Shown here: piece after piece, positions 16,603-58,582 of the stretch | Numbering within the stretch: position 1 is the first letter of the stretch | Layout of the letters: every line of letters starts with the position of its first letter | Notes under the pieces: model-generated | Told to the model about the DNA's origin: nothing | What the model saw: only the letters and a program-made list of their open reading frames with translations | The model's database searches: none | Translations under genes and position numbers: made by a program | From: Streptomyces antimycoticus | GTDB lineage: Bacteria > Actinomycetota > Actinomycetes > Streptomycetales > Streptomycetaceae | NCBI RefSeq assembly: GCF_005405925.1 | Contig: NZ_BJHV01000001.1 | Coordinates: 5,270,001 to 5,334,000, forward strand | DNA: 64,000 bases | Reading direction: 5' to 3'

Positions 16603-16883
16603 CACGTCCTTTCCAAGGAGTACCGCGAGATCTGGCAGGCTGCGCGCCTCGTGGTGCTGTCAGAGGAGGAGGCCAAGACTCCGTTGGCCGAGAAGCCGTA
16701 TTCGGCCAGGGCCGCTGGCGTCTCGCTCTGGCTCGAATCGGGGTGCCCCCCATCGAGGTCGCCCGGCGGGCCGGACACAGCATCGCCGTCCTGTTCCGGT
16801 TCTACGCGAAGGTGATCCACCGCAACCAGCAGCGCTCGAACGAACAGATAGAACGGTCGTTGGAAGCGGCGGAGGACGAGTAG
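16603..16883 (+). pseudogene. Tyrosine recombinase (integrase) C-terminal remnant
   Basis: The fragment reads SKEYREIWQAARLVVLSEEE, AEKPYSARAAGVSLWLES and, after a one-base frame change, GVPPIEVARRAGHSIAVLFR and FYAKVIHRNQQRSNEQIE. These match the catalytic end of Streptomyces tRNA-targeting integrases. The active-site Tyr (FYAK) and the Gly-His box are present, but the first catalytic box reads YSARAAG where YDLRHA is usual, so His is lost. The N-terminal two thirds are missing. The frame change sits at GGGG 16740-16743, where one more G restores the frame. Confidence 0.8.
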
Positions 16884-17129
16884 GGAAGGCAGGAGGCCGA
16901 GGAAGATGAGCGCCAGGCGGCGACCGCCGAACCGAGCGCATGTCCGGCGGCCTCTGGTCCCGTCTCCGCCCCTGACCGGGCGTGCTGCCGACGCTGCTCC
17001 GGCCGGGCAAGCCCACAGGGAAACCTGGGCAAGCCCGGCCGGTTTGGCGCTGCCAGGCGGTACATTCGCCCCTGAGACCGCGAGGGCTCAGCTCGGCGCA
17101 GCGGGACCGCTGGCGGTGGCCTTGGGGTT

Positions 17130-17888
17130 TTACGGCTCCGGGTCCAGAGGAATGTTCAGGGTCACGAGCACGCCTGCGCGCTTGACGACGACCGGGTAGG
17201 TGGCGCCCGACCTCTTACCGCTGAGGACCGCATCGAGGTCGTTGACGGTGGGGGTGAGGATTCCCGCGACTTCGGTGATGACATCACCGGGGAGGAGTCC
17301 TGCGGCTTCGGTGCTGCTGCCCGGGTCGACGGCGAGCACTCGTACACCTCCGCCCGCAGGGCTGGTGTTCTTGAGGTTGCCCGCGATGATGCCCTGGATG
17401 CCGGGGGCGATGTGCACGGTGAGCGGCTGGGTCACCCCGTTCAGGGTGAAGCTCCCGGTGAAAGTCCCCCCGGCCAGAGGAGCATCGCTGTCGGCGACGA
17501 CGTGGACGGTGAAAGGCCGGATGAAGTCCCACGTGCTGGCGGAGCCCTGCGCCGTGGCGGACTTGCCGTCCCCGGCGATCTGTACCGGGCATGACATCCC
17601 TGTGCATCGCAGATCCAGTCCGACGATGCGAGTGTGCGGCGGTGCCTGGATGCTGATGGAGCTGGGCTGGTGGTACCGCTGCCCGTCCGGCGGATAGTCG
17701 ACGGTCTTCGCCGGCCCGCCTGCGTCCAGGTCGGGAACGTTCTGCTGAGGAGGCAGGGAACGCGCCTGAGAGGGCGCGGACGCCGCTGCCGACGCGGAGA
17801 ACCCGGTGGCGGGCACAGCCGCTCCGGCTGCGAACAGGGCGGTGCCCAGGGTGAGAACGCCGCATGCTCGACGGAACTTACGGATCAT
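17130..17888 (-). CDS. Secreted PDZ-domain protein without protease domain
   Basis: The 252-residue protein starts at ATG 17888 behind GGAAGG. It has a signal peptide ending near ATGFSASAAA, a beta-rich middle region with a Cys pair (LRCTGMSCPV) and a C-terminal PDZ domain (VLAVDPGSSTEAAGLLPGDV). PDZ domains bind C-terminal or extended peptides. The HtrA-like protease beyond the tRNA gene also ends in a PDZ domain, so this could be a PDZ-only partner or competitor acting outside the membrane. It lies within the tRNA-bounded segment, so it was probably acquired with it. A frame extension upstream to 17966 has no support. Confidence 0.7.
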   Translation of the reverse strand: MIRKFRRACGVLTLGTALFAAGAAVPATGFSASAAASAPSQARSLPPQQNVPDLDAGGPAKTVDYPPDGQRYHQPSSISIQAPPHTRIVGLDLRCTGMSCPVQIAGDGKSATAQGSASTWDFIRPFTVHVVADSDAPLAGGTFTGSFTLNGVTQPLTVHIAPGIQGIIAGNLKNTSPAGGGVRVLAVDPGSSTEAAGLLPGDVITEVAGILTPTVNDLDAVLSGKRSGATYPVVVKRAGVLVTLNIPLDPEP

Positions 17889-18017
17889 CAGGAGCCTTCC
17901 TGATAGTAGGGGCCTAAATGTCCCAGCCCATACCAGAGGGCAACTTGAGTTTCGGGCTCGGCCCACTCAACCGAGGAGGAACATGTCCTAAGGCCCTTGA
18001 TTTGGCCCACGCCTGGT

Positions 18018-18190
18018 CCACACGCGCTGATCAACAGTGGGATTCGGGCAGCACAGGGTGAGACAGCGGACACGCAGAAGGGGTGCCCCCGAACCGGGGG
18101 CACCCCTTCTGACCAGCTAGTTCGCTGACCTGCGCGGAGGCTGAGGGATTTGAACCCTCGGTGACATCGCTGCCACGACGGTTTTCAAGA
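18018..18190 (-). repeat. tRNA-proximal copy of the 173-bp direct repeat
   Basis: This is the partner of 15893-16065. It includes the 3' part of the intact tRNA-Ser and the following terminator, and marks the tRNA-side junction of the decayed element. Confidence 0.85.
18078..18108 (-). terminator. tRNA-Ser terminator
   Basis: Perfect 13-bp arms AAGGGGTGCCCCC and GGGGGCACCCCTT with a 5-base loop lie about 27 bases beyond the tRNA 3' end. Read on the minus strand it is well placed to end the tRNA transcript. The distal repeat copy keeps a weakened version. Confidence 0.8.
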
Positions 18191-18221
18191 CCGTTCCCTT
18201 AGGCCGCTCGGGCAAGCCTCC
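18135..18221 (-). tRNA. tRNA-Ser (anticodon UGA)
   Basis: On the minus strand the acceptor arms GGAGGCT and AGCCTCC pair perfectly. The anticodon arm is ACGGT-CTTGAAA-ACCGT with anticodon TGA, a long variable arm typical of serine tRNAs follows, and the T-arm is GAGGG-TTCAAAT-CCCTC. The discriminator is G and CCA is not encoded. An element has used the 3' half as its integration site and left the tRNA intact. Confidence 0.97.
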
Positions 18222-18260
18222 CCGCGCCACTCGCGGTGGCGCGGGGATCAGCCTAGCGCG

Positions 18261-19742
18261 TCAGCTGTCACCCTTGCGCTTCCCCAAGGTGACGTCCGCC
18301 TTGGACACCTTGCCGCCGCGCTTGTAGGTGAGAGTGACCTTGTCGCCCGGCTGGTGGGTCCAGATCTCGCTGATGAGGGTCGGGCCGCTGTCGATGGCCG
18401 TGTCGTCCAGCTTGGTGATCACGTCGCCGGACTTGAGGCCCGCCTTGTCGGCCGGGCCGCCGGGGACGACGGCGGGGCTGCCGCCGGTGCCGTTGGAGGC
18501 GATGGTGGCGCCGTTGGTGGAGTCCTTCGTGCTGACCGTGGCCTCGATCACCGGGTAGATGGGCTGGCCGGTCTTGATCAGCTGCTCGGCGACGTTCTTG
18601 GCCTGGTTGATCGGGATCGCGAAGCCGAGGCCGATGCTGCCGGACTGCTGGGACTCGCCGAGGCCGCTGCCGTTGCCGGCGGACTGGATGGCGGAGTTGA
18701 TGCCGATGACGCCGCCGTCCGCGTTGAGCAGCGGGCCGCCGGAGTTGCCCGGGTTGATGGAGGCATCGGTCTGCAGGGCGCTCATGTACGAGGCGTTGCC
18801 GCCGCCTCCGTCGCTGGAGGCGACCGGGCGCTTCTTGGCGCTCACGATGCCGGTGGTGACGGTGCCGGAGAGGCCGAAGGGGGCGCCGATGGCGACGGTG
18901 GCGTCGCCCACGGCGACCCGGTCGGAGTTGCCGAGCGGCAGCGGGTTGAGCTTGGCGTCCGCGGCGTTCTTGAGCTTGACCACGGCGACGTCGTAGCCCT
19001 GGGCGCGGCCGACGACCTGGGCGGTGTACCGCTTGCCGTTGGAGAAGGTGGCGGTCAGCTTGCCGTTGTCGGCGGCCGAGGCGACGACGTGGTTGTTGGT
19101 GAGGATGTGGCCCTGCTTGTCGTACACGAAGCCGGTGCCGGTGCCGCTCTCGCCGTTGTTGCCCTGGGCCTCGATGGTGACGACGCTGGGCAGGGTCTTG
19201 TTGGCGATGCTCGACACCGAGCCGGGCGCGCGGCTCTCCGTCTTGGGGTTGCCGTAGGCGGAGACGGTGGTGGTGTCGCTGCCGTCGCTCTCCCGGTCGG
19301 CGGCCCAGAAGCCGATGCCGCCGCCGATGGCGCCCGCGACCAGTACGGCGGCCAGCAGGGCGGCGACCAGCCCGCGGGGCTTGCGCTCGGACGGGCCGGA
19401 GGGCGGCACGGGAGCGGTCCCCCACGGTCCGCCCGGGCCGCCCTGCCCGCCTTGTCCTTCGCCCGGGCCGCCGGGCTGCTGTCCGCCGTCGGCCGACCAC
19501 CACGTGCCGGCCTGTCCGGCGTCCGCTCCGGGGCCCGAGGCGCCGGACGCGGGGCCGGGGGCTCCCGGCTGCCCTGCCGCGTCGGGCGAGCCTATTGGCG
19601 CGTCGGACGCGGCCGGCTGCCTGCCCGCGGTGGGCTCATAGTCCGGCGCGGGTGGCACGGCCGGGTTCGGGTGCGGCGCCGGAGGGGCCGGATGCGGCCC
19701 GGGCGCGGGCGGAACGGCAGAGCCCTCGTTCTCGGTGCTCAC
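18261..19742 (-). CDS. HtrA/DegP-like membrane serine protease with PDZ
   Basis: GTG 19742 is the start (GAGGAG seven bases upstream), giving 493 residues. The N-terminal 120 residues are Pro/Gly/Ala-rich and cytoplasmic, then one transmembrane helix (VAALLAAVLVAGAIGGGIGF), a trypsin-like domain and a C-terminal PDZ domain. The catalytic triad is visible: His in LTNNHVVAS, Asp in GYDVAVVKLKN and Ser in INPGNSGGPLL. It should degrade or refold misfolded proteins outside the membrane under envelope stress. The gene is transcribed toward the tRNA and is flanked upstream by the divergent GDPD gene. Confidence 0.93.
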   Translation of the reverse strand: MSTENEGSAVPPAPGPHPAPPAPHPNPAVPPAPDYEPTAGRQPAASDAPIGSPDAAGQPGAPGPASGASGPGADAGQAGTWWSADGGQQPGGPGEGQGGQGGPGGPWGTAPVPPSGPSERKPRGLVAALLAAVLVAGAIGGGIGFWAADRESDGSDTTTVSAYGNPKTESRAPGSVSSIANKTLPSVVTIEAQGNNGESGTGTGFVYDKQGHILTNNHVVASAADNGKLTATFSNGKRYTAQVVGRAQGYDVAVVKLKNAADAKLNPLPLGNSDRVAVGDATVAIGAPFGLSGTVTTGIVSAKKRPVASSDGGGGNASYMSALQTDASINPGNSGGPLLNADGGVIGINSAIQSAGNGSGLGESQQSGSIGLGFAIPINQAKNVAEQLIKTGQPIYPVIEATVSTKDSTNGATIASNGTGGSPAVVPGGPADKAGLKSGDVITKLDDTAIDSGPTLISEIWTHQPGDKVTLTYKRGGKVSKADVTLGKRKGDS

Positions 19743-19959
19743 AGCAATCTCCTCAGGTGCACGACAGATTTCCTCGACGGCCCACGTGTACGTCTTACCG
19801 TCGTCAGCTTTTCCCACAGCGCGTCAGACGGCCGTAAGGAGCGGCGGTCCTGCGGACTACCACCCTTTATCCCGGACAATTCGACCCACCGCCATTCCGT
19901 GCGAACGTACGGAGGGGCCGAGTCCACCGGCTGTCACCGGGCGGTGGCACCATAACGCG

Positions 19960-20793
19960 GTGACCTATGCGCGCCCTGCCCGGGACAGCCACCCCGGGCC
20001 GCCCACCGTCTCCGTCGTCGCCCATCGCGGGGCCTCCGAGGATGCCCCGGAGCACACCCTGGCCGCCTACCGTAAGGCAATCGAGGAGGGCGCCGACGCC
20101 CTGGAGTGCGATGTCCGGCTGACCGCCGACGGCCACCTCGTCTGTGTCCATGACCGCCGCGTCAACCGCACCTCCAACGGCCGGGGCGCGGTCTCGGCGC
20201 TGGAGCTGTCCGATCTGGCGGCCCTGGACTTCGGCTCCTGGAAGGGCCGGGCCACCGACAAGGAGGAGCCGGACCGCGACAGCCGGGACAGCATCTCCGT
20301 CCTCACCCTGGAACGGCTTCTGGCGCTCATCGCCGACGCGGGACGCCGTATCGAACTGGCGATCGAAACCAAGCACCCCACCCGATGGGCGGGCCAGGTG
20401 GAGGAGCGGCTGCTCGCGCTGCTGCGCCGCTACGGCCTGGACGCCCCGCCGCCCGGCGAACTTTCACCCATCCGTGTGATGAGCTTCTCAGCGCGCTCCC
20501 TGCACCGGATCCGCAGCGGGGCCCCCGGCATCCCGACCGTCTACCTGATGCAGTTCATACTGCCGCGCCACCGGGACGGGCAGCTGCCGGCCGGGGTGCG
20601 GATCGCGGGGCCGAGCATCCGGATCGTGCGGAACCATCCCGGCTATGTGGCGCGACTGCAGCGCGAGGGGCACCGAGTGCACGTGTGGACCGTCGACGAA
20701 CCGGAGGACGTCGACCTGTGCGTCCGCCTCGGGGTCGACGCACTGATCACCAATCGCCCCAAACAGGTACTGTCCCAACTCGGACGCTCATAA
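19960..20793 (+). CDS. Glycerophosphodiester phosphodiesterase
   Basis: The 277-residue protein is a GDPD-family TIM barrel. The signature VVAHRGASEDAPEHTLAAY contains the catalytic His and the Glu-His variant of the usual Glu-Asn pair; the metal-binding Glu-Asp is in ADALECDVRL, followed by the second His in VCVHDRRVNRTS. It hydrolyses deacylated phospholipids to glycerol-3-phosphate and an alcohol. It has no signal peptide, so it is cytoplasmic. GTG 19960 is the best in-frame start, with a weak ribosome binding site. It is divergent from the protease gene. Confidence 0.9.
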   Translation: MTYARPARDSHPGPPTVSVVAHRGASEDAPEHTLAAYRKAIEEGADALECDVRLTADGHLVCVHDRRVNRTSNGRGAVSALELSDLAALDFGSWKGRATDKEEPDRDSRDSISVLTLERLLALIADAGRRIELAIETKHPTRWAGQVEERLLALLRRYGLDAPPPGELSPIRVMSFSARSLHRIRSGAPGIPTVYLMQFILPRHRDGQLPAGVRIAGPSIRIVRNHPGYVARLQREGHRVHVWTVDEPEDVDLCVRLGVDALITNRPKQVLSQLGRS

Positions 20794-21768: not shown

Positions 21769-22725
21769 ATGGCCAAGAAGCGCCGCCCCCAGACGAAGGC
21801 CGCAGGCCCACAGGTCGCCAACGGCGAGATCCCTGTGGTGGGCGCGCGGGAGCCTTGCCCGTGCGGTTCGGGCCGTCGCTACAAGGCCTGTCACGGCAGG
21901 GAAGCCGCACACGCCGCCACCGAGCTGGTGCAGCGCCCCTTCGAGGGGCTCCCCAACGAATGCGACTGGGTGGCCCTGCGCGAGCTGGTGCCCGCCGCGA
22001 CCGTCGAGCTGTCTCTCGCCGAGGGGCTGCCCGAGGGGGTTCCGTCGGTCACCCTGGCGACCGTGCTGCCCATGGCGTGGCCCGCGCTGCGCCGCGACAG
22101 CGGCGCCGTGCTGCTCGGTCTGCAGAACGACACGCCCTCCGGTGACATCAGCCGCGACCTGGCCGACACCCTGCGCCGGGCGCTGACCGCCGATCCGGGC
22201 ACTCCGGTGGCCGCCGAGCGGGCTCCGGGCGACGGTCCCCGGCTGCAGGATCTGCTCGACCCGAAGGGCACTTTCTCGCCGACCCTGCACGAGGGGTTCG
22301 AGTTCTGGCTCGACGACGCCGCGAACGCGACCGGAGAGGTCGCCGCGTCCCTGGAACGGGCCAACGCGGCCGCGATCCCCACCGCCCGGCTCACCGGCGT
22401 GGAGGCGGCCTACTGGTGCGAGACGCCGGAGAAGAACCACCTGCGCTGGGTGATGTCCCACCCCGAGGAGAAGCTGCTCGACGCGCTCGCCCGGCTGCAC
22501 GCCGCGGGTGCCTCCTCGCTCGGCGAGAACACCCGGCTGGTGGGCTCCTTCCGGGCCCATGGGCTCACGGTGCCGGTGTGGGATCTGCCACGCGGGATGA
22601 GCGCCGAGGACACCGAGAAGCCGGCCGTGGACCTCGCCGAGCGGCTCGCGGAGGCGCTCGCCTCCGACGCCCCGCTGACGCCCGAGCAGCGGCGCGCCCG
22701 GGCGGTCTCACCAACCGTCAGGTGA
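21769..22725 (+). CDS. DUF5926 family protein with SEC-C motif
   Basis: The 318-residue protein starts with a basic MAKKRRP segment and a SEC-C zinc motif ([18 protein letters not shown], residues about 29-46), as at the C-terminus of SecA. The rest is a conserved actinobacterial domain of unknown function (DUF5926). The Cys-x-Cys...Cys-His ligands are complete. The gene is in the same direction as the RsbW-like gene but 157 bases away. Function is unknown; zinc binding is the only safe prediction. Confidence 0.85.
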
Positions 22726-24600: not shown

Positions 24601-26211
24601 ATGAACTCCCCCCACGCGCCGAAAGTGGCTGGAATCGATCCTTCCCTCCCCTCGCCCACGCAAACTGCGGACCCCGTCCCGGACCCGGTTCCCCCGCCCC
24701 TGACCGATGCCAACTCCGGTGTCCAGGACCGGCTCGCGAGCTGGGTCTCGGATCTCACCACCCTTCATGAGCTCACCGAGCGGCTGGTCAGGACCGGGAC
24801 GCTCGACGAGGCGCTGCGTGAACTGCTGCGCGCGGGCGCGGCCCTGGTCGGCGCCCGGCGCGGGCTGGTGGCGCTCGAACCGGCCGATGGACTCGGCCCG
24901 GTGACCACCGTGGGGCTCGGCCTCGGCCACGCCGATCTCGGCCAGATCGAGACCATTCCCCGCGGCTCCGCCTCCGCCGGTCATCTCCTCGACGGGCTGC
25001 CCGAGCCGGGTGGTGAGCGGCGTGCCGATGTGACCCACCCCGATATCGCCGGCGAGGCCGACCTCGACCCGCGCCACCGCGAGGTGGCCGCACGGCTCGG
25101 CTTCGCCGCGAGCTACGCGGTGCCGCTGGACCCGTTCCGGGCCACCCCCTGTACCGCGCCCGGCCTTACCGCCATCCCCGCGCCCGCCCCCGACGCGGAC
25201 GGGTCCGGCACCGGATCCCCGGCAGGCGCGGGCGACCGTCCGGCCCCCGGCGCGCCCGGCACCGGCCACGGACGCGATGCCGCACCGGCCGCCGCGGCCC
25301 CGCCCGGGATCGCCGCCGCCATGGGCGCCGGCGGGCCCTCCGGGCGGCTCGGCGGAGCCGCCTGGCTCTACGACGAGCCCGCCGAGCCCGGGGAGCGCCA
25401 GCGCCATCTCGTGGGCCTGTACTGCCAGTACGCCGCCGCGCACATCGCCCGGCTGATCGAGCTGTCCCGCGCCCGCGCCGTCGTCGCGACCGTCCAGGAG
25501 GAGCTGCTGCCCACCCGGCTGCCCCGGGTCCCCGGGGTGCGTCTGGCCGTTCGCCACCACCCCGGTCCGCACGGCGGCGGGGACTGGTACGACGCGCTGC
25601 CGCTGCCGGACGGGGCGCTCGGGCTCTCGGTGGGCGGGGTCACCGGTTCCGGGCCGAGCGCCGTGGTCGCGATGGGGCGGCTGCGGGCCTCGCTGCGGGC
25701 GTATGCGGTGATGGAGGGCGAGGACCCGGTCGCCGTCCTGTCCGATCTGGAGCTGCTGCTGCGGCTCACCGAGCCCGCCCGCTCCGCGACCGCCCTCTTC
25801 GCCTACTGCGAGCCCGGCACGCGCAAGGTGGTCCTGGCCGGGGCCGGGCACTGCCCGCCGCTGCTCACCGGGGAGCGGCGCACCGAGTTCGTGGAGACCA
25901 CCCTGTCCGCGCCGCTGGGGATGCTCTCGTGCTGGGAGGCGCCCAGCGTCGAGATCGAACCGTCGTCCGGGGAGACGCTCCTCTTCTACAGCGACGGGCT
26001 GCTCCATCGCACCGGTGAGCCGATGGACCGGGCCTTCACCCGGCTGCACACGGCCGCGGCGAGCGCGCCCAAGGGCGTCCGGGGCGACCCGGACGCCTTC
26101 GCCGACCATGTGCTCCGTACGGTCCTCCCCGACGGCCCGGCGGCCCCCGTGGGGCGGCCCTCGGAGGACGGCACCGAGGACCTCGTCCTGCTCGTGGCCC
26201 ACTTCGACTGA
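24601..26211 (+). CDS. GAF/SpoIIE-type PP2C protein phosphatase
   Basis: The 536-residue protein has a Pro-rich N-terminus, a GAF-like sensory region (about 45-250) interrupted by a low-complexity Ala/Pro/Gly insert, and a C-terminal SpoIIE-type PP2C domain (about 295-536). Phosphatase motifs are LAVRHHPGPHGGGDWYDALP with the metal-binding Asp, VAMGRLRASLRAYA, LVLAGAGHCPPLL-like FAYCEPGTRKVVLAGAGHCP and LLFYSDGLLHR. The residue usually Asp in the GDVxGxG motif reads SVGGVTGSG, so one metal ligand is replaced by Gly. Such phosphatases dephosphorylate anti-anti-sigma factors and pair with RsbW-like kinases, two of which are in this window. Confidence 0.88.
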   Translation: MNSPHAPKVAGIDPSLPSPTQTADPVPDPVPPPLTDANSGVQDRLASWVSDLTTLHELTERLVRTGTLDEALRELLRAGAALVGARRGLVALEPADGLGPVTTVGLGLGHADLGQIETIPRGSASAGHLLDGLPEPGGERRADVTHPDIAGEADLDPRHREVAARLGFAASYAVPLDPFRATPCTAPGLTAIPAPAPDADGSGTGSPAGAGDRPAPGAPGTGHGRDAAPAAAAPPGIAAAMGAGGPSGRLGGAAWLYDEPAEPGERQRHLVGLYCQYAAAHIARLIELSRARAVVATVQEELLPTRLPRVPGVRLAVRHHPGPHGGGDWYDALPLPDGALGLSVGGVTGSGPSAVVAMGRLRASLRAYAVMEGEDPVAVLSDLELLLRLTEPARSATALFAYCEPGTRKVVLAGAGHCPPLLTGERRTEFVETTLSAPLGMLSCWEAPSVEIEPSSGETLLFYSDGLLHRTGEPMDRAFTRLHTAAASAPKGVRGDPDAFADHVLRTVLPDGPAAPVGRPSEDGTEDLVLLVAHFD

Positions 26212-26216
26212 GGCGC

Positions 26217-26288
26217 GAGTTCGGCTGAAGCTCGAGTTCGGCTGGGGCTCGAGTTCGGCTGAGGCGCGAGCTCGGCTGAGGCTCGAGG
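26217..26288. repeat. 17-bp tandem repeat, about four copies
   Basis: Units of the type GAGTTCGGCTGAGGCTC start at 26217, 26234, 26251 and 26268 with a partial fifth at 26285. They lie between the phosphatase stop and the pepP start and encode nothing recognisable. Confidence 0.9.
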
Positions 26289-26394
26289 GGGACCACGGCG
26301 CCCGCTGGAGCCGTGGTCGCCCCGCGCTGCGGGCCCTCCCTGCCGTCGCGCCCCCGCACATACGATGGGTGGGGTCCAGTTCGAGGAGGAAGAC

Positions 26395-27861
26395 GTGACC
26401 GAGGAGCCCACTCCCGAAGCCCCGGAGAACCCGGAAGGCGAGGAGCCCATCAAGCAGCGGAAGAACGGCCTCTACCCAGGCGTTTCCGACGAGCTTGCGG
26501 CGAACATGCAGTCCGGTTGGGCGGACACCGAGCTGCACGACCTGGAGCCCGTCGAGCAGGCTCCGCACACCGCCCGCCGCCGCGCCGCGCTCTCCGCGCG
26601 CTTCCCGGGCGACCGTCTGGTCATCCCCGCGGGCAATCTCCGCACCCGCTCCAACGACACGGACTACGGCTTCCGCGCCTCGACCGAGTACGCGTACCTC
26701 ACCGGCGACCAGACCGAGGACGGTGTGCTGGTACTGGAGCCCGAGGCGGGCGGCGGCCACACGGCGACGCTGTACCTGCTGCCGCGCTCCAACCGGGAGA
26801 ACGGCGAGTTCTGGCTGGACGGCCACGGCGAGCTGTGGGTCGGCCGCCGGCTCAGCCTTACGGAGGCCGAGAAGCGGCTGGGCCTGGCCGCCAAGGACGT
26901 CCGCGAGCTGGCCGACGAGCTCAGGGCCGCGACCGGCCCGGTCCGTATCGTGCGCGGTCACGACGCCGCTCTGGAGGCCGCGCTGACCGACAAGGTCACC
27001 GGTGAGCGCGACGAGGAGCTGCGGGTCTTCCTCAGCGAGCAGCGCCTGGTCAAGGACGAGTTCGAGATCGGACAGCTGCAGGCGGCCGTCGACTCGACGG
27101 CGCGCGGCTTCGAGGACGTCGTCAAGGTGCTGGACAAGGCGCAGGCGACTTCCGAGCGCTATATCGAAGGAACGTTCTTCCTTCGGGCCCGGGTCGAGGG
27201 CAACGACGTCGGCTACGGCAGCATCTGCGCCGCGGGCCCGCACGCCACCACGCTGCACTGGGTGCGCAACGACGGCCCGGTCCGCTCCGGCGATCTGCTC
27301 CTCCTGGACGCGGGCGTGGAGACCACCACCCTCTACACCGCCGACGTGACCCGCACGCTGCCGGTGAACGGCACCTACAGCCCGCTGCAGCGCAAGATCT
27401 ACGAGGCGGTGTACGAGGCGCAGGAGGCGGGCATCGCCGCCGTCCGGCCGGGTGCGAAGTACCGCGACTTCCACGACGCCGCCCAGCACGTCCTGGCCAC
27501 CAGGCTCGTCGAGTGGGGCCTTGTCGAGGGCCCGGTGGAGCGGGTGCTGGAGCTGGGGCTGCAGCGGCGCTGGACGCTGCACGGCACCGGTCACATGCTC
27601 GGCATGGACGTCCACGACTGCGCCGTGGCCCGTACCGAGACCTATGTGGACGGCACCCTGGAGCCCGGGATGTGCCTGACGGTCGAGCCGGGGCTGTACT
27701 TCCAGCCCGACGATCTCACCGTGCCCGAGGAGTACCGGGGCATCGGCGTGCGGATCGAGGACGACATCCTGGTGACCGAGGACGGCAACCGCGTGCTGTC
27801 GGCCGCGCTGCCGCGGACCGCCGACGACGTCGAGGCGTGGATGGCCCGCCTCACCGCGTGA
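26395..27861 (+). CDS. pepP: Xaa-Pro aminopeptidase (aminopeptidase P family)
   Basis: The 488-residue protein has the N-terminal AMP_N domain and a C-terminal M24 pita-bread metallopeptidase domain. It removes N-terminal residues that precede proline. Metal ligands are visible: Asp in LLLDAGVETTT, Asp in ADVTRTLPV, His in HGTGHMLGMDVHD, Glu in TVEPGLYF and Glu in RIEDDILV. GTG 26395 is chosen because GAGGAGGA lies just upstream; an ATG ten codons earlier is in frame. A strong bidirectional terminator follows at 27893-27921. Confidence 0.93.
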   Translation: MTEEPTPEAPENPEGEEPIKQRKNGLYPGVSDELAANMQSGWADTELHDLEPVEQAPHTARRRAALSARFPGDRLVIPAGNLRTRSNDTDYGFRASTEYAYLTGDQTEDGVLVLEPEAGGGHTATLYLLPRSNRENGEFWLDGHGELWVGRRLSLTEAEKRLGLAAKDVRELADELRAATGPVRIVRGHDAALEAALTDKVTGERDEELRVFLSEQRLVKDEFEIGQLQAAVDSTARGFEDVVKVLDKAQATSERYIEGTFFLRARVEGNDVGYGSICAAGPHATTLHWVRNDGPVRSGDLLLLDAGVETTTLYTADVTRTLPVNGTYSPLQRKIYEAVYEAQEAGIAAVRPGAKYRDFHDAAQHVLATRLVEWGLVEGPVERVLELGLQRRWTLHGTGHMLGMDVHDCAVARTETYVDGTLEPGMCLTVEPGLYFQPDDLTVPEEYRGIGVRIEDDILVTEDGNRVLSAALPRTADDVEAWMARLTA

Positions 27862-27929: not shown

Positions 27930-28441
27930 TCAGCCCTGCCCCGGACCCTTGCGGGTGGTCACCGCGATCCGGTTCCAGGAGTTGATCGTGAAGATGAGGG
28001 CGATGAGCTGGGCCAGCTCCCGCTCCTCGAAGTGCCGGGCGGCCCGCTCGTAGACCTCGTCCGGGACGCCGCCCGGCAGCAGCGTGACCGCCTCGGTGAG
28101 CGCCAGGGCGGCCTGCTCCTTCTCGGTGTAGAACCCGCCCTTACCGGCCTCCTCCTAGACCCCCACCAGGGCGATGCGCTCATCGCTCTCGCCCGCCTTA
28201 TGGGCGTCGGTGGTGTGCATATGGAGGCAGTAGGCGCAGTTGTTGAGCTGGGAGGAGCGGATCTGCACCAGCTCCACCAGGGCCGGGTCCAGGCCCTCGC
28301 GGGCGGCCGCGTCCAGGCTGATCAGCGCCTTGAACGCCTTGGGGCGGCCTTCGCGAAGTCGACCCGTCCGGTCTGCCGCGTCGCCGTCGCCGCTGTGGTC
28401 GTCGTCTGGACCGTCGTCGCTGTCGCTGTCGTTGTCGTCAT
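27930..28441 (-). pseudogene. AhpD/carboxymuconolactone decarboxylase-family gene, broken
   Basis: On the minus strand ATG 28441 opens a Thr/Ala-rich start followed by GRVDFAKAAP. One base is then missing in a C run near 28361-28364. The other frame continues with ALISLDAAAREGLDPALVEL and SSQLNNCAYCLHMHTTDAHK, which holds the peroxidatic Cys-x-x-Cys and His of AhpD-like proteins. An in-frame TAG follows in LVGV-stop-EEAGKG, where Trp (TGG) is expected, and the rest runs to IFTINSWNRIAV and the stop at 27930. The missing base may be an assembly error, but the amber codon is a second lesion. The gene is divergent from MocR, its probable regulator. Confidence 0.8.
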
Positions 28442-33724: not shown

Positions 33725-33802
33725 ATGCCCTCGCTGACCTCCCTGGCCCCGCCGGGCCCACCGCGACCCCCACCCGGACCACCGCGACCGCCCGGCGGCT
33801 GA
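33725..33802 (+). CDS. Possible proline-rich leader peptide coupled to copCD
   Basis: ATG 33725, with AAGGA about 10 bases upstream, opens 25 codons of which about half are Pro, and its TGA overlaps the copCD ATG as TGATG. Pro-rich leaders can stall ribosomes, so this could tune copCD translation. It may equally be a chance frame. Confidence 0.3.
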   Translation: MPSLTSLAPPGPPRPPPGPPRPPGG

Positions 33803-35817
33803 TGGCGATCTGCGGCACCCTGCTCGCCGCGCTGCTGTGCGCGCTGAGTGTGGGCGCGAGCTCCGCGTCCGCGCATGCCGCGCTCACCTCGACCGACCCC
33901 GCCGACGGCTCGGTGGTGAAGACCGCGCCCAGGGAGGTCACGCTGAACTTCTCGGAGGGCGTGCTGCTCTCCGGCGACTCGGTGCGCGTGCTCGACCCCA
34001 AGGGCAAGCGCGTGGACACCGGGAAGACCGCCCATGTCGGCGGCAAGTCGTCGACCGCCGCCGCCGGGCTGCACTCCGGGCTTCCGGACGGCACCTACAC
34101 GGTGGCGTGGAAGGCGGTCTCGGAGGACAGCCACCCGGTGAGCGGCGCGTTCACCTTCTCCATCGGCGCCCCGTCCAAGACCACGGCGAAGGTACCCACG
34201 GGCCAGGCGTCCGACAGCACCGTGAGCACGCTCTACGGAATCGGCCGGTACGCCGCCTACGGCGGTTTCGCGGCCCTGGTCGGCGGCAGTGTGTTCGCCG
34301 GGTTCTGCCGGTCCTCCCGCCCGGTGCGGAAGATCGCCGTGGGCGGCTGGGTGACGGTCTTCACGGCCAGCCTGCTGCTGTTGCTGCTGCGCGGGCCGTA
34401 CACCGACGGCGAGGGGATCGGCGGGATTCTCGACCTCGGCAGGCTGGGCGATGTGCTGTCCACCAAGCCGGGCGCGGCGCTGCTGTCCCGGCTGCTGCTG
34501 CTCGGCGCGGCGGCGGTCTTCCTGGCCGTCCTCTTCGGCTCGTACACCCGTCGCACCGGGGAGCGGGAGGCGGACGCGCGGCGCCGCCAGGACCTCGCCT
34601 TCGGGCTGGGCTTCGGCGGCACGGTGATGGCGGTGGGCCTCTCCGCGACCTGGGCGATGGCCGAGCACGCCTCGGTCGGCCTCCAGCGGCAGCTCGCCAT
34701 GCCGGTGGACATGATCCATCTGATCGCGGTCGGGGTGTGGCTGGGCGGTCTGGCCTCGCTCGCGGTGACGCTCCGGGCGGGTGAGCCGATCGGGCGGGCG
34801 GCCGTGCGCCGCTTCTCGCGGCTCGCCTTCGGCTCGGTCGTCGCCCTGGTGGTCACCGGGCTGTACCAGTCGTGGCGGCAGGTGGGCTCCTGGGGCGCGC
34901 TGACCGACACCGAGTACGGGCGATGGCTGCTGGTCAAGGTGGGTCTGGTGGCGGTGCTCCTGGCCATCGCGGCCATCTCGCGACGCTGGACCGGCCGCCT
35001 TACGGATGCCACGGCGGAGGAGACGGAGGCCGAGGCGGAGAGCGGGTCGGAGGCGGCTTCGGCGGCTTCGGAGGCGGAGGCCGGGACCAAGACTGAGGCC
35101 AAGGCAGCGGTGAAGGCCGCGCGGCCGGTCCGTACCGGCGCGGCCGCCGCGGCGGTCGACACCCCTGCCGATGCCGAGACCGAGTCCGGAGGCGGGCCCG
35201 GTGACGGCGCCGATACCGACGCGGCCGACGACGATCCCGAACGCGCCGCCCAGCTCGCCCGTCAGCGGGCCGCCAAGGACAAGACCGCCACGCTGCGGGA
35301 GCGCGACGCCGACCGCGAGCGCAGCGGTCTGCGCCGGTCGGTGATCGCCGAGACCATCGTGGCCGTCGTGCTGCTGGCGGTGGCCACCGTGCTGAGCGGC
35401 ACCCAGCCCGGCCGGGCCGAGACCGAGCAGGCGAGCGCCCCGGCCACGAAGCCCGGCGGCCGGCTGAACGTCGACCCGGTGAGCGTCCTCGTCCCCTATA
35501 ACACGGGCCCCAAGAGCGGACGCGGCAAGGCCGTTGTCATGATCGAACCCGCTCTGCCGGGTGACAACGCGCTGCATGTCTTCACCACCGACCTGGCGGA
35601 CCGTCCCGTGGACGTCCCCGAGGTCAAGCTGTCGCTGACGCTCAAGTCGAAGGGGATCGGGCCGCTGCGCATCCCGCTCGAGCGCCTCTCGACCGGGCAC
35701 TGGAGCGCCAAGACGGTCCAGCTCCCCATGGCCGGCACCTGGCAGCTCTCCCTGACCGTACGAACCTCCGACATCGACCAGGTGACGGAGACCAGGAACG
35801 TGAAAGTCGCTCAATGA
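33802..35817 (+). CDS. CopC-CopD copper resistance fusion protein with YtkA-like tail
   Basis: The 671-residue protein has a signal peptide, a CopC domain whose mature N-terminus is HAALTSTDPADGS (His being the copper ligand; second site SEDSHPVSG), an eight-helix CopD membrane domain (about 145-400), a long charged Glu/Ala/Asp-rich loop (about 405-500), another helix and a C-terminal YtkA-like domain (about 560-671). CopC-CopD imports or handles copper at the membrane. ATG 33802 overlaps a small Pro-rich frame upstream, and the stop overlaps the dtpA start (ATGA). Its place supports a role in supplying copper to extracellular oxidases. Confidence 0.92.
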   Translation: MAICGTLLAALLCALSVGASSASAHAALTSTDPADGSVVKTAPREVTLNFSEGVLLSGDSVRVLDPKGKRVDTGKTAHVGGKSSTAAAGLHSGLPDGTYTVAWKAVSEDSHPVSGAFTFSIGAPSKTTAKVPTGQASDSTVSTLYGIGRYAAYGGFAALVGGSVFAGFCRSSRPVRKIAVGGWVTVFTASLLLLLLRGPYTDGEGIGGILDLGRLGDVLSTKPGAALLSRLLLLGAAAVFLAVLFGSYTRRTGEREADARRRQDLAFGLGFGGTVMAVGLSATWAMAEHASVGLQRQLAMPVDMIHLIAVGVWLGGLASLAVTLRAGEPIGRAAVRRFSRLAFGSVVALVVTGLYQSWRQVGSWGALTDTEYGRWLLVKVGLVAVLLAIAAISRRWTGRLTDATAEETEAEAESGSEAASAASEAEAGTKTEAKAAVKAARPVRTGAAAAAVDTPADAETESGGGPGDGADTDAADDDPERAAQLARQRAAKDKTATLRERDADRERSGLRRSVIAETIVAVVLLAVATVLSGTQPGRAETEQASAPATKPGGRLNVDPVSVLVPYNTGPKSGRGKAVVMIEPALPGDNALHVFTTDLADRPVDVPEVKLSLTLKSKGIGPLRIPLERLSTGHWSAKTVQLPMAGTWQLSLTVRTSDIDQVTETRNVKVAQ

Positions 35818-38750: not shown

Positions 38751-40027
38751 GTGATTGACCTTCGCCTGCTCCGTGAGGACCCCGATCGTGTGCGCGCCTC
38801 CCAGCGCGCCCGTGGAGAGGACGTCGGCATCGTCGACGCCCTCCTGACCGCCGACGAGCGGCGCAGGTCCTCCAGTGTCCGCTTCGACGAGCTGCGCGCC
38901 GAACAGAAGGCGCTCGGCAAGCTCATCCCCAAGGCCTCCGGTGACGAGAAAGCCGAGCTGCTGAAGAAGGCGGGCGAGCTGTCCGCCGCCGTCAAGGCGG
39001 CCGACGCCGAGCAGGACGCGGCCGCGGAGGAGACCCAGCAGCTCCTGCTCCAGCTGGGCAATCTCGTCCACCCCGCGGTCCCGGTCGGCGGTGAGGACGA
39101 CTTCACCGTCCTGGAGACGATCGGCACCCCGCGCGACTTCGATGCCGAGGGCTTCGCGCCCAAGGATCATCTGGAGCTCGGCGAGCTGCTCGGCGCGATC
39201 GACACCGAGCGCGGCGCCAAGGTCTCCGGCTCCCGCTTCTACTACCTGACGGGCATCGGCGCCCTGCTGGAGTTCGCACTGGTGAACGCGGCGATGGCAC
39301 AGGCCACCGCGGCGGGCTTCACCCCGGTGCTCACCCCGGCGCTGGTCAAGCCGAAGGCCATGGAGGGCACCGGCTTCCTCGGCCAGGCCGCCGAGGACGT
39401 CTACCACCTCGACAAGGACGACCTCTACCTGGTCGGCACCTCCGAGGTCCCGCTGGCCGCGTACCACATGGACGAGATCCTGGAGGCGGACCAACTGCCG
39501 CGGCGCTACGCCGGGTTCTCCTCCTGCTTCCGCCGTGAGGCCGGGTCGTACGGCAAGGACACCCGGGGATCTTCCGGGTGCACCAGTTCGACAAGGTCGA
39601 GATGTACGTCTACACGACCCCGGAGGACGCCGAGGCCGAGCACCAGCGGCTGCTGGACTGGGAGAAGCAGTGGCTGACCTCCCTCGAGCTGCCGTTCCGG
39701 GTGGTCGACCTGGCCTCGGGTGACCTGGGCTCGTCGGCGACGCGGAAGTTCGACTGCGAGGCGTGGATCCCGACGCAGGGCAAGTACCGCGAGCTGACCT
39801 CGACCTCCAACACCACCGAGTTCCAGTCGCGGCGGCTGTCGATCCGGATGCGCGAGGGCAAGAAGGTCCGTCCGCTGGCCACGCTCAACGGCACGCTGTG
39901 CGCGGTCACCCGGACCATCGTCGCGATCCTCGAGAACCACCAGCAGGCCGACGGCTCGGTGCGGGTGCCCGAAGCGCTGCGGCCGTTCCTGGGCGGACGC
40001 GAGGTCCTGGAACCGGTCGCACGGTGA
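38751..40027 (+). CDS. serS: Seryl-tRNA synthetase, with one-base frameshift in this sequence
   Basis: The class II synthetase charges tRNA-Ser. From GTG 38751 the frame covers the N-terminal coiled-coil arm (about 30-100) and motif 2 up to [15 protein letters not shown]. It then leaves frame at CCCGGGGATC (39562-39570). One extra G restores [20 protein letters not shown], the motif 3 region and the proper end EVLEPVAR, giving 425 residues, the normal length. serS is essential and usually single-copy, so an assembly or read error is far more likely than a dead gene. The stop overlaps the next gene start (GTGA). Confidence 0.92.
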
Positions 40028-40962: not shown

Positions 40963-41411
40963 TCAGCCGAAGACCTTGACCGCCTGGTAGTAGGTCCACG
41001 CCGTGCCGTCGCACGACGTCTTGGTGGCACCGCTGTAGGCGCTGCACACCCGCTTGAGGTCCTCGTAGAAGGCGCTGTCGATGCGCGGTTTGTTGGCGTC
41101 GAAGGTGCCCATCGCCTTGTAGTTGCGGTAGCCGAAGTCATGCCGGGCGCAGGCGGTCTGGAAGGGGAAGCCGAAGGGGTTGTCGGGGGAGCTGCTGCAG
41201 TAGTCGGTGGACCAGTCGAACCCGTAGGCGGCCCAGGCACCCTGGTTGCTCCGCGCCGCGACCCAGGTGTTGTAGCTGCTGGCGCTGGTCTGCGTCCAGC
41301 TGGCGAGAACCTGCGGCTTGTCCGCGGGGCGGCCTGGGCGGGTGCGGCCAGGGCGATGGCGGTGGCCGCGGTGACAGCGGTGGCCGCGAGACTCGTGACG
41401 AGGCGACGCAT
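40963..41411 (-). CDS. Secreted phospholipase A2, with one-base frameshift in this sequence
   Basis: ATG 41411 encodes a signal peptide ending LAAPAQA, then the frame is lost at CCCC (about 41329-41332). Adding one C gives ADKPQVLASWTQ, a mature domain with CSSSPDNPFGFPFQTACARH, DFGYRNYKAM, Cys residues for two disulfides and the end TYYQAVKVFG. This is the bacterial secreted PLA2 family known from S. violaceoruber, with the catalytic His-Asp pair in CARHDFGYRN. It releases fatty acids from the sn-2 position, usually with Ca2+. Corrected length is about 149 residues, normal for the family. Confidence 0.88.
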
Positions 41412-51793: not shown

Positions 51794-52377
51794 TTAGAGA
51801 CCCGGTGCGCCCCAGACCGGGAACCAGCGGCTCAGGTCCTCCTCGATCCGCAGATCGTCCCCGAGCAACGCCCGCATCTGGAGCTCCAGTGCGTTGTCCC
51901 GCTTCTCCGCGGCACCCGGCAGCGGCGCGAAGGGGTAGAAGGTGCCGCGCTTGTAGAGATAGACCAGCGCGAGCGAACGCCCCGCCGGGTCCTGGAAGCC
52001 GATCAGCGAGCACAGCAGCTGAGGGCCGAACCCGCCGTCCTGGAGCAGCGAATTGACCGCGTGCAGATCGTTCACCAGGGCGGGCACATCGTCCGGCGGC
52101 TGCCGGGCCAGCAGCCAGGTGTAGCCGTACGCGTCCTGGCTGAACTCCACGGGCACCCCGCCCCGGTCCGTGTCCGCGTCCAGCAGCTCCCGCACATCCC
52201 GCTGGAGCTGGGAGAACGCGCCGCCCTCCACGCTCGCGAAGCAGACCGAGCCGCGCCCGGTCGGGGTGAACCCCGCCCCCGCCTCCAGGCTGACCGCGGC
52301 CCCGGGAGCCCGAAGAGCCGGTCGAGGTCGGGGCGCACCGGCTTGCTGCGGCCCAGGATGGCGTCCAAGATCCTCAC
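51794..52377 (-). CDS. pspAB: PspA-associated protein PspAB, with one-base frameshift in this sequence
   Basis: GTG 52377 opens ILDAILGRSKPVRPDLDRLF then loses frame at CCCC 52300-52303 (GGGG in the coding strand). One extra base joins it to AAVSLEAGAGFTPTGRGSV and then FSQLQRDVRELLDADTDRGG through WFPVWGAPGL, giving about 194 residues, the full PspAB length. PspAB is found with PspA (phage-shock) genes and, as here, directly after htpX, so a membrane stress role is likely. The start lies two bases from the htpX stop. Confidence 0.85.
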
Positions 52378-52379
52378 GC

Positions 52380-54368: not shown

Positions 54369-54436
54369 ACCGATATCAGCGCCGTCCCGAGATCAACGCC
54401 GTACCGAGATCAACGCCATACCGAGATCAACGTCGT
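54369..54436. repeat. 17-bp tandem repeat, four copies
   Basis: Four units of the type ACCGAGATCAACGCCGT occur at 54369, 54386, 54403 and 54420 in the divergent promoter between the oxidoreductase and HAD genes. Confidence 0.92.
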
Positions 54437-54546
54437 ACGGGCGGGACACCCGGGACGGCGCCTGGGGACGTCCCGTGACGGCGCCCAAGGACCCACACGA
54501 GCACAGCCCGGCACCGCTGAGCGGCATATGCGGGAGGATGGTTGCC

Positions 54547-55431
54547 GTGACCCCTGCGACCGAGCGGCCGAACACCCCGGCCCCAGAGCCTTCCCGCCCC
54601 GCCCCGGCCCGGCCCCGGCTGATCGCCACCGACCTCGACGGCACCCTGCTGCAGAACGACAAGACGGTCTCCGACCGCACCGTGGCAGCGCTCGCGGCGG
54701 CCGAGCGGGCGGGCATCGAGGTGTTCTTCGTCACCGGCCGCCCGGCCCGTTGGATGGACGTCGTCAGCGCCCATGTGCACGGCCACGGCCTGGCGATCTG
54801 CGCCAACGGCGCCGCCGTGGTCGATCTGCACCGGGGCGGGCTGCCGATCGAGGTCCGCCCGCTCGCCGCCGACCAGGCCCTCGCCGTCGTCGAGGCGCTG
54901 CGCGGGGCGGCCCCCGGCACGTCCTTCGCGGTCGAGCGCAGCGGCGGGATCTTCTACGAGCCGCAGTACCCGCCGTTCCACCTCGACCCGGGCGCGATCG
55001 TCGCCCCCGCCGAGAAGCTGCTGCACGACGGATTCGCGCACGCCGACATGCCGGTCCTCAAGCTGCTCGCCCACCACCCCGAGCTGGCGCCCGACGCCTT
55101 CCTGCAACTGGCCCGCTCGGTGGCAGGAGACTACGGCGACTTCACCCGCTCCAGTCCGTCCGCCCTGCTGGAGGTCAGCGGGCTCGGGGTCAGCAAGGCC
55201 AGCACGCTGGCCCGGTGCTGTGCCGAGCGCGGGATCTCCGCCGCGGAGGTCGTGGCGTTCGGCGACATGCCCAATGACCTGGAGATGCTGATGTGGGCGG
55301 GCACCTCCTACGCGATGGCCAACGCCCATCCGGAGGTGCTCGCCGCGACCACCCACCGCACGGGCGCCAACACCGAGGACGGCGTCGCCGCCGTCATCGA
55401 GCGGATCGTCGAGCGGATCCTGGCGGGCTGA
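54547..55431 (+). CDS. Cof-type HAD hydrolase
   Basis: GTG 54547 with GGAGG nine bases upstream gives 294 residues; an ATG three codons earlier overlaps that site. Motif I is [14 protein letters not shown], motif II FFVTGRPARWM, the motif III Lys is in LGVSKASTLAR and motif IV is [12 protein letters not shown]. It is a paralogue of the serS-linked phosphatase. The frame is open far upstream but that part lacks coding character. Confidence 0.9.
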   Translation: MTPATERPNTPAPEPSRPAPARPRLIATDLDGTLLQNDKTVSDRTVAALAAAERAGIEVFFVTGRPARWMDVVSAHVHGHGLAICANGAAVVDLHRGGLPIEVRPLAADQALAVVEALRGAAPGTSFAVERSGGIFYEPQYPPFHLDPGAIVAPAEKLLHDGFAHADMPVLKLLAHHPELAPDAFLQLARSVAGDYGDFTRSSPSALLEVSGLGVSKASTLARCCAERGISAAEVVAFGDMPNDLEMLMWAGTSYAMANAHPEVLAATTHRTGANTEDGVAAVIERIVERILAG

Positions 55432-55442
55432 AGCGCACACGA

Positions 55443-55471
55443 CCGCCCCCCGGCCGTGGGGTCGGGGGCGG
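55443..55471. terminator. Terminator between HAD and glycine-rich genes
   Basis: Arms CCGCCCCC and GGGGGCGG (8 bp) enclose a 13-base loop 12 bases after the HAD stop. Confidence 0.6.
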
Positions 55472-55483
55472 CGGCTCGCACGA

Positions 55484-55522
55484 CCGCGTTTACCAGCCGC
55501 GTTTACCAACCGCGTTTACCAG
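55484..55522. repeat. 13-bp tandem repeat CCGCGTTTACCAG, three copies
   Basis: Three copies overlap the stop codon and last codon of the glycine-rich gene, so the repeat forms the 3' end of that gene and its immediate downstream region. Confidence 0.95.
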
Positions 55523-56355
55523 AAGAAGACCAGGTAGCCGTTGCCGCCGGGGGTACCGGGGGTGCCCGCGCTGCCCGGGGTGTTGCCACCGGGGCCGCCG
55601 ATGCCGCCGTCGCCGCCCGCGCTGGTGTTCGTCGGGGGCAGCTCGACGATGCCCTCGACCGCGTCGCCGCCCTCGCCGCCGTCGGCACCGGACGCCCCGT
55701 TCTCACCGGTGCGGTTCACCGCGGAGAGGCTGTTGCAGGCGCCGGTGCCGCCGGTACCGCCGGTGCCCGGAATGCCCGGAGCGGCCGTACCGCCGGCACC
55801 GCCCGTGCCGCCCGTGCCGCCACCGGCGATGAGCTGGACGCCGCTGCTGGAGGTCAGCGTCGTCGCAGTGCCCGGCCCGCCGGCGCCGCCGTGCCCACCC
55901 GGGTTGCCGCCCACGGGGCCACCGCCACCGGCACCACCGGCGCCGCCGGCGGTACCCAGGTCCACCGAGTAGGTGGCGAACGGCGTGACCGGGATGACAC
56001 ACCACGTGAAGCCGCCGGATCCGCCGCCACCGCCGGTGCCGCCGGGGCCGGTCAGCGTGGCGCTGGCGCCGCCACCACCGCCACCGCCACCACCGCCCGC
56101 TCCCCACGCCTGGATGTGCACCGAGGTGACGCCCGCGGGGGGCGTGAAGGTGCCGTCCGCGGTGAACTCCTGGACCCCGTGGATGATGGACGGCGGCCGG
56201 GGCGGCTTGGGACGGCCGCCGCCCAGGGTGTCGTCCGCCTGAGCGACGGGGGACATGCTCAGCACCTGGCCGGTGAGGCTCGCCGCAGCAAGGGTGGCGA
56301 AGAGGACCCGGCGGCGCGCCCGGGATCGCTTGGGAGTGGGACTCTGGCTGTTCAC
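55516..56355 (-). CDS. Secreted glycine-rich protein
   Basis: GTG 56355 (GGAAGG upstream) gives 279 residues. A basic N-terminus (PKRSRARRR) and hydrophobic segment ending in SPVAQA form a signal peptide. The mature part starts with a short beta segment (HGVQEFTADGTFTPPAGVTS and VHIQAWGAGGGG) as in glycine-rich domain surface proteins. It continues in Gly-Gly-x repeats of over 150 residues, interrupted by one Cys-containing segment (FTWCVIPVTPF) and another Cys later, and ends GNGYLVFFW. It is probably an extracellular structural or surface protein of unknown function. Confidence 0.85.
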   Translation of the reverse strand: MNSQSPTPKRSRARRRVLFATLAAASLTGQVLSMSPVAQADDTLGGGRPKPPRPPSIIHGVQEFTADGTFTPPAGVTSVHIQAWGAGGGGGGGGGGASATLTGPGGTGGGGGSGGFTWCVIPVTPFATYSVDLGTAGGAGGAGGGGPVGGNPGGHGGAGGPGTATTLTSSSGVQLIAGGGTGGTGGAGGTAAPGIPGTGGTGGTGACNSLSAVNRTGENGASGADGGEGGDAVEGIVELPPTNTSAGGDGGIGGPGGNTPGSAGTPGTPGGNGYLVFFW

Positions 56356-56882
56356 GTCATGACTTCCTTCCCCGCGGTCGGGCCAACATCTGTCGCGGAG
56401 GGCGATGGGATACGAAGGTCCGAACGGCCCGCGAGCCTCATCCCACCGTCGGCCACCACGCACCGCACTCCGACGGCGCGCTAGTTGGCCCGCGTAGGTG
56501 AGGCGTTGCGCCGGGCGGGCGACAACCGGCGCCCCACAGCGGCGTGTCGGGCACACAGTGGCCCGCCGGGCATCACCCTCGCCCGGCGGCGACGCGTCAC
56601 GCATGCGGCAGACGTAGGCGTACGGCGGCGTCAGGCGCACGACGGCATACGCAGGCACGCAGCCCGCCGTCAGGCACACAGCGCCGTCACGCGTACGGCA
56701 GTGGCAGACGTACCGAGGCGTCAGACGCACGGCAGACGCAGGCGTACCGCGGCGCCAGACGCAGACACACAGCCCGCCGTCAGGCGCTGGACGGCGTCAC
56801 GCGCACGGCAGCCGCAGGCACGCAGCCCGCCGTCAGGCACACAGTGGCCTCGGGCTGCGGCGACACCAGACGCACGGCGCCG
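56356..56882. repeat. Degenerate repeat region between glycine-rich and kinase genes
   Basis: From about 56560 to 56880 the DNA is built of CGTCAGGC, GCAGRCGYA and CACGGCAG-like words. A 31-bp stretch starting GCAGGCACGCAGCCCGCC recurs exactly at 56651-56681 and 56814-56844, 163 bp apart. No real gene is supported, although several frames stay open because of the repeat. Confidence 0.7.
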
Positions 56883-58582
56883 TCAGGCGCCCTCGCTCGG
56901 CAACGGCGCCTCCCACACCACCGCCGTACCGCGCCCGCCCTCCCCGAGCCCGGGCCCGACGCCGCTCGAGCCGCCCAGCGCCTCGGCCCGCCGCACCAGG
57001 TTCGTCAGACCGCTGCGCCGCCCGCCCGCGGGCACGCCCACCCCGTCGTCCGCGACGGTCAGCCGCACCGACGGTCGTCCATCCGTAAGCCGCCCGGTGG
57101 CGTCCACGACCACCTCGATCCGCTCCGCCCGCGCGTGCCGAAAGGCGTTGGACAGCGCCTCGCGCAGCGCCGCGACGAGATGGGCGCCGGTCGCCGTGCC
57201 AACCCGGGAGTCCACCGGTCCCACGAAGGTCAGGGACGGCTGGAAGCCCAGCGGCACGGCGGCCGCTCTGACCTCCCGCAGCACCCGGCCGCGCAGCCCG
57301 GGCGGCGTCTCGGGCGGGGTCTGTTGCAGCGCGTAGATCGCCGTCCGCACCTCCTGGATGGTGGCGCCCAGTTCCTCGACGGCCCGCTCGATCCGCTCCC
57401 GCACCTCCGGCGCGTCCAACTGGCGCTCCGCGCTCTCCAGCAGCATCCCGGTCGCGAAGAGCCGCTGGACGACGAGGTCGTGGAGATCGCGGGCGATCCG
57501 GTCGCGCTCCTCGAGGACCGCGAGCCGCTCCCGGTCGCGCTGCGCCCCGGCGAGCACCAGCGCGACCGCCGCCTGCGCCGCGAACTGGGCGGCCAGCGTG
57601 CGCTCGGTGGCGGTGAACGGGCGGGCGCCGCGCTCGCGCGCGGTGGCCAGCACGCCGACCACCCGGTCCCCACTGCTCAGCGGGACCATCAGGCTCGGCC
57701 CGTAACGCCCGGGGACGCCGGTGCCGAGCAGCGGGTCGGCGGCCGGGTCCTCGATGACAACCGGCTGCCCGGCCAGCAGCCTCGGCACGGCCGGGGAGCG
57801 AGCCGGAAGTACGGCGCCGAGCAGCCCCGACCGCTCATCGGCGGCCACCGCCGCGACCTTCAGCCCGCCCTCGCCCTCCTCCGGCAGCAGCACGATCCCC
57901 ACCACCGCGTCCGCGAGTTCACGGATCTTCTCGGCGACCACGGCGGGCCCTTCCCCGGCGTCGCCGGACAGCAGCGCCTGGGTGACGGCCACCGATCCCT
58001 CGATCCAGCGCTCGCGCTGCCGGGTGGCCCCCTGGACGCGGGTGTGGCCGATGGCGATCCCCGCCTCGGTCGCCAGCACCTCGACCAGATGCCGGTCGGA
58101 CTCGGTGAACGGACCGCCGTCCCGCTTCCCGGCGAGGCAGAGGGTGCCGAAGATCTCCTCCCCGACCCGCAGTGGAACGCTGAGATACGAGCCCTGCGGC
58201 CGGGTGGCCGACGGCGTTCCGGTGCGCCGTGCGTCGGCCAGCAACTCCGCGCACCGCTCCCGGTCGGTCTCGGTATCGGTATCGGTGTCGGTGTCGGTGT
58301 CGGTCTCGCCGTAGGTGACCACATCGGCCAGGCCCTGCCCCCGGCGGCATCGCCGTCGGCGTGGTGCACCCCGATCGCGGCGCGGCGGGCACCCACCAGC
58401 TCGGCCGCGGTGCGCACGATCCGGTCGAGGACGGTATGCGCGTCCGGCCCGTCACCGAGCGAACGCATCGCCTCCAGCAGCCGCGGCAGCCTCGCCGTGA
58501 GCTCGGTGGACAGCCCACGCAGACCCCGGGTCGCCTCCGCGGCCACGTCCAGGGGGTCGGGGGAGGGCGCAGCGGCCGCCAT
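56883..58582 (-). CDS. DosS-like GAF sensor histidine kinase, with one-base frameshift in this sequence
   Basis: ATG 58582 starts MAAAAPSPDPLDV, then a first GAF domain up to IGVHHADGDAAGG. The frame is lost at a G run near 58349-58353; one extra base continues with GLADVVTYGE. A Thr-Asp repeat insert, the rest of GAF 1 (SYLSVPLRVGEEIFGTLCLA), GAF 2, a HisKA_3 domain with His in RDRIARDLHDLVVQRLF and an HATPase domain (VADDGVGVPAGG, RRSGLTNLVRRAE) follow. Corrected length is about 566 residues. DosS-type kinases of actinobacteria sense O2, NO or redox state, which fits its place beside cydCD-cydB. No cognate response regulator is in the window. Confidence 0.85.

Follow-up and report, generated by a model that had tools for sequence, protein, structure and literature searches.

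One-base shortfalls at G/C runs and frame-broken genes in the genome assembly of Streptomyces antimycoticus

Frame-broken genes in a 64-kb stretch

The stretch of DNA analysed here (the window, 64,000 nucleotides) covers positions 5,270,001-5,334,000 on the 10.92-Mb main contig of the Streptomyces antimycoticus assembly GCF_005405925.1, a genome of 11.17 Mb in three contigs with a completeness score of 99.98%. Frame breaks are found at eight coding sites in the window: in an integrase-like remnant, a DUF5926/SEC-C gene, an AhpD/CMD-family gene, a CopC-CopD gene, serS, a gene for a prokaryotic phospholipase A2, pspAB and a gene for a GAF/HisKA_3 sensor kinase. A preliminary description of the sequence had listed six of these as lacking exactly one base. 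All six frame breaks are present and each locus is indeed one base short in comparison with relatives, the integrase remnant with respect to one genome only, while the breaks at 22700 and 33747 had been overlooked.

For comparison we used the reference genomes G022, G023 and G024, the last being the complete relative Streptomyces sp. S465, together with related loci. A first automatic sample of relatives was too distant and was exchanged for the genomes behind nine named loci, eight of which were used (the genome of locus L012 was left out). Alignments shorter than 400 bases (800 for the nine-locus comparison) were dropped, as were gaps that were not exactly one base long or whose flanks were unclear and gene matches below 60% identity or below 60% coverage. 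Upstream of serS lies a prephenate dehydratase gene with matches in Streptomyces niphimycinicus (99%), S. rugosispiralis (98%) and further members of the violaceusniger group.

The gene serS (approximately 38751-40024, forward strand) is interrupted at a GGGG run at 39565-39568, where it is one base short in comparison with nine out of nine related loci, five of which show a longer G run. At this point the TIGR00414 profile is split between two frames (profile positions 2-275 and 275-418), the halves following each other in the correct order and together spanning the whole profile, and a tblastn search with the seryl-tRNA synthetase (SerRS) protein of G022 places the frame switch at the same four bases. 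Throughout the genome, the profile search revealed no serS above the TIGR00414 family cut-off, only the two halves of one copy. No second serS that could stand in for the split copy was found; the three other matches are weak, partial and located in longer frames. Among 8,000 scored proteins, the 120 best are nearly all full-length SerRS; these 120 include copies of 425 residues that are 99-100% identical over the first part as well as a form of 295 residues encoded on a contig of 10,917,594 bases, exactly the length of the present chromosome. From these comparisons, the lack of one open serS frame above the cut-off is attributed to a probable assembly error. Real one-base contractions, either because repair is defective in the strain or because the genes are decaying, would be the obvious alternative, which we consider very improbable. 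It had been argued beforehand that real contraction cannot explain a dead serS, and this argument stands, since the sole copy is split and relatives that are nearly identical in serS are intact.

Three further genes on the reverse strand are broken in the same manner. The phospholipase A2 gene (approximately 40966-41411) is one base short at 41326-41329 in comparison with all eight loci that cover the site; the G run is longer in the closest relative, and five of the others have an A in this place. PF09056 matches the longer piece as well as the gene of the relative, whose protein switches frame at the site. In pspAB (approximately 51797-52377) the shortfall at 52300-52303 is seen against eight of eight genomes (three plus six compared, one genome being in both sets). 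The relatives differ on the identity of the extra base, and the change from four to five is plain in the nearest one. PF22742 (PspAB) matches the relative's gene, and its protein switches frame at these four bases. The AhpD-like gene (matched at approximately 27936-28435) is one base short against all three covering loci, in each of which the change from four to five is plain. Its break had been placed near 28361, about 17 bases away from the run concerned at 28341-28344, where the relative's protein switches frame; TIGR00778 and PF02627 match the relative's gene. The earlier statement that five sites would go from a four-base to a five-base run by addition of G or C thus applies in part. It is borne out by all three relatives for the AhpD-like gene, by five of nine for serS and by the nearest relative for phospholipase A2 and pspAB, whereas several relatives carry a different base at the phospholipase, pspAB and integrase sites.

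The two overlooked coding sites lie near gene ends on the forward strand. The DUF5926/SEC-C gene, which starts at 21769, is broken near its 3' end at 22700, one base short against three of three genomes and not at a long run. PF19348 is found on the relative, the protein of which switches frame at residue 311 of 322, the short second piece being weak (E 0.075). The CopC-CopD gene (approximately 33725-35814) is broken near its 5' end at 33747-33750, one base short against seven of nine loci and three of three genomes, with a plain four-to-five change in five of the nine relatives. Here, too, the frame switches with respect to the relative's protein, the short piece being weak alone (E 0.068), and PF04234 and PF05425 match the relative's gene. 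A further one-base shortfall, at a poorly conserved and probably non-coding position, adjoins the C run at 11680-11684; it is seen against three of three genomes, only G024 having a longer C run.

At two sites real decay may also be considered. The sensor kinase gene (approximately 56886-58582, reverse strand) switches frame at about 58337-58345, adjoining a run of five C at 58338-58342 and not a four-base run. It is one base short against three of three genomes, but these relatives are divergent, and the responsible run cannot be fixed. The G022 and G023 kinase proteins switch frame at the site, and GAF and HisKA_3 domains are found on the relative. The integrase-like remnant is one base short at a GGGG run at 16740-16743 (forward strand) in comparison with a single genome, which has an A there (the loci L144 and L151 overlap), and a second shortfall with respect to the same genome follows about 110 bases further on. 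A Pfam search of the remnant gave no match, "integrase" being the name given in the preliminary description. With its two shortfalls the remnant resembles a decayed mobile gene, as real contraction would have it. A mixed origin that is compatible with assembly error, most sites being errors and the remnant and perhaps the kinase gene being truly broken, is conceivable but on balance doubtful: two shortfalls against one informative genome and the divergence at the kinase site speak for it, while the same error rate alone would give such sites.

A run of 28 G at 16435-16462 lies between the remnant and a candidate N-terminal frame that is TIR-like by the impression gained from its translation. 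It is the only G/C run of at least 18 bases on either strand of the 11.17-Mb genome. So long a tract is unexpected where the assembly shortens runs, and it is possibly a junction artefact. Contigs of G022 and G023 open with extended stretches of C or G (36 bases; 11 and 15 bases; starts of L194 and L204), as if these assemblies ended at such tracts.

Direction of indels and frame breaks within and beyond the window

Where at least two of the three reference genomes cover the window, ten private one-base shortfalls were counted, some of them intergenic, and no private insertion. The earlier claim that no +1 error occurs holds for this covered part, while a few breaks of the +1 type exist elsewhere. 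Over all sequence, the ratio of private shortfalls to excesses was 21:10 for this genome, 20:10 for G024, 8:4 for G022 and 6:8 for G023. These counts were dropped as the main test because the controls G024 and G022 share the ratio, and the resemblance to two of three controls is a point in favour of real contraction. In a strict GC-phase test for coding shifts, this genome showed five private shortfalls and one private excess, the three controls together no private shortfall and one private excess. In G024, private shortfalls outnumber private excesses at 4.56-4.96 Mb over all sequence (20 to 10), but the strict test revealed no private coding shift there.

Frame breaks were then scanned in two 400-kb stretches about 2 Mb apart, i.e., in 0.8 of 11.17 Mb, and in the matching parts of the relatives, with G022 being included in the first stretch only; the direction of a break was taken from its size modulo three. 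When genes of G024 were placed on this genome, 18 breaks (16 in the shortfall, 2 in the excess direction) were found among 201 genes (238,746 bases) of the first stretch and 36 (32 and 4) among 213 genes (245,322 bases) of the second, giving 54 breaks, 48 of them in the shortfall direction, over a matched gene length of 484,068 bases. Comparison of G022, G023 and G024 with each other, in eight ordered comparisons that share data, yielded 16 breaks (9 shortfall, 7 excess) in 1,029,156 bases. Genes of G022 and G023 on this genome gave 5 (5, 0), 7 (6, 1) and 28 (27, 1) breaks. The mirror test, with genes of this genome placed on the relatives, gave 46 breaks, 38 of which mean that this genome is the shorter one. 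Among the 54 breaks, 29 are exactly minus one and four exactly plus one; the direction of the other 21, of larger apparent size, is less sure because the matched pieces overlap or are gapped. The scan misses the window sites at 22700, 33747 and 58337 and therefore undercounts.

The broken genes are unrelated, occur in both stretches and are not confined to one gene class. Chromosomal murF and dnaX are among them. For murF, an intact second copy is located on the 126-kb contig C3 at 26119-27393 (L282, L298), in a neighbourhood part of which matches Streptomyces plasmids, a plasmid of S. chartreusis also carrying murF. The chromosomal break therefore need not be lethal, and murF was rejected as further proof of lethality. 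A truncated DnaX may be tolerable as well, to judge from Escherichia coli, where dnaX is frameshifted by design. The presence of dnaX among the broken genes would suit programmed ribosomal frameshifting or transcriptional slippage at G/C runs, by which full-length proteins could be produced from interrupted genes. We deem this explanation extremely improbable, and likewise the notion that the short runs are real and the strain lives by such means with broken essential genes including its sole serS. The genes of the relatives are in one open frame, serS being one base longer in all nine loci and full-length SerRS predominating among the 120 best-scored proteins mentioned above, and the named broken genes are unrelated.

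Dependence on run length

The preliminary description had proposed a comparison of run lengths with related genomes. We carried it out for G/C runs of a reference relative with clean flanks, keeping coding and non-coding runs apart and leaving out runs with substitutions inside, ragged edges or a difference of more than one base. With G024 as reference, coding runs of this genome were one base short in 4 of 10,786 cases at length 3, 8 of 2,487 at length 4, 17 of 564 at length 5 and 8 of 39 at length 6, corresponding to 0.04%, 0.3%, 3.0% and 21%, and one base long in 1, 2, 1 and 0 cases. The controls G022 and G023, compared with G024 in the same way, had short coding runs in 2 of 8,603, 0 of 2,016, 2 of 410 and 0 of 24 cases. 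The coding shortfall in this genome thus exceeds that of the controls at lengths 4 to 6 (Fisher p 0.45, 0.009, 0.003 and 0.016 at lengths 3 to 6). With G023 as reference, 15 of 401 five-base and 6 of 26 six-base coding runs were short, with G022 5 of 144 and 0 of 6. In coding sequence, the share of short runs among six-base runs is about sevenfold that among five-base runs (8/39 vs. 17/564); five-base runs dominate among the broken sites because they are common. For A/T runs, which are few, no clear effect was seen.

Outside genes, six-base runs were short in 10 of 19 cases here and in 4 of 22 cases in the controls (p 0.02), and no excess over the controls was found at lengths 3, 4 and 5 (p 0.88, 0.31 and 0.83). 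In this genome taken alone, shortfalls are less frequent in coding than in other runs at length 3 (p 0.007) and at length 6 (8/39 vs. 10/19, p 0.018), not significantly less frequent at length 4 and not less frequent at length 5. The statement that coding sequence is not spared, which had rested on five-base runs alone, was rejected as a general one once all lengths were considered, and the shortfall pattern is not simply blind to genes. The lower share of short coding runs at lengths 3 and 6 is what selection on real contractions would give; natural variation outside genes, which is seen in the controls too, may also explain it. On the other hand, coding runs of 4, 5 and 6 bases stand out by their excess over the controls; in coding sequence the controls show almost no length variation, and real changes should be rarest there. 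Real contraction would furthermore have to account for roughly one interrupted gene in every 10 kb of coding sequence (48 breaks of the shortfall type in 484 kb), including the sole serS, and we judge a cell in this condition not credible.

Origin and consequences of the short runs

Based on the direction bias, the rise with run length and the split serS with intact relatives, we attribute the frame breaks with high confidence to errors in the assembly consensus, in which some G/C runs are probably one base short, and not to biology. The systematic homopolymer under-calling proposed in the preliminary description is supported by the same observations. Six of the 54 breaks in the opposite direction and some sites away from a long run are points against it. 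Loss of a base from this consensus would be rare in G/C runs of length three or four and would affect about 3% of the coding runs of length five and roughly one in five of those of length six. In agreement with the earlier view that the effect is partial, the runs near 18877 and 28799 both have five bases, and the window still contains 155 five-base G/C runs. Error rather than mutation at each single site is what we infer, and the same applies to the platform and the genome-wide number: the assembly was most likely based on long reads of the PacBio CLR or nanopore type with too little correction by accurate reads, and perhaps several hundred genes would appear broken, as extrapolated from 0.8 Mb with the control rate subtracted.

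Parallels have been published. In one Streptomyces study, short-read-corrected sequences and PacBio-only assemblies disagreed at 70, 295 and 335 sites, overwhelmingly through single-base insertions in homopolymers (PMC6923854). The present case resembles those described there in the high G+C Streptomyces background, in the single-base shortfalls at G/C homopolymers and in being judged by comparison of proteins with homologues. It differs in that the 70-335 differences per genome were obtained with short reads, while several hundred are extrapolated here from relatives alone. In the Kastor paper, false deletions constitute the majority of indels, most following runs of four to five bases (PMC12007338). 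The long-read assemblies treated in that paper are alike in that deletion-type indels fragment genes and create false pseudogenes; unlike the Pss508 assembly described there, in which A/T runs were hit most, G/C runs are concerned here, A/T runs being few (PMC12007338). The error type fits a long-read consensus lacking sufficient correction.

The completeness score of the assembly gives no sign of the frame breaks, and its users would be led to list numerous false pseudogenes and split enzymes and to regard seryl-tRNA synthetase as missing. Comparing the lengths of coding runs with those of a few relatives, as was done here, is a cheap way to spot such assemblies that needs no reads.
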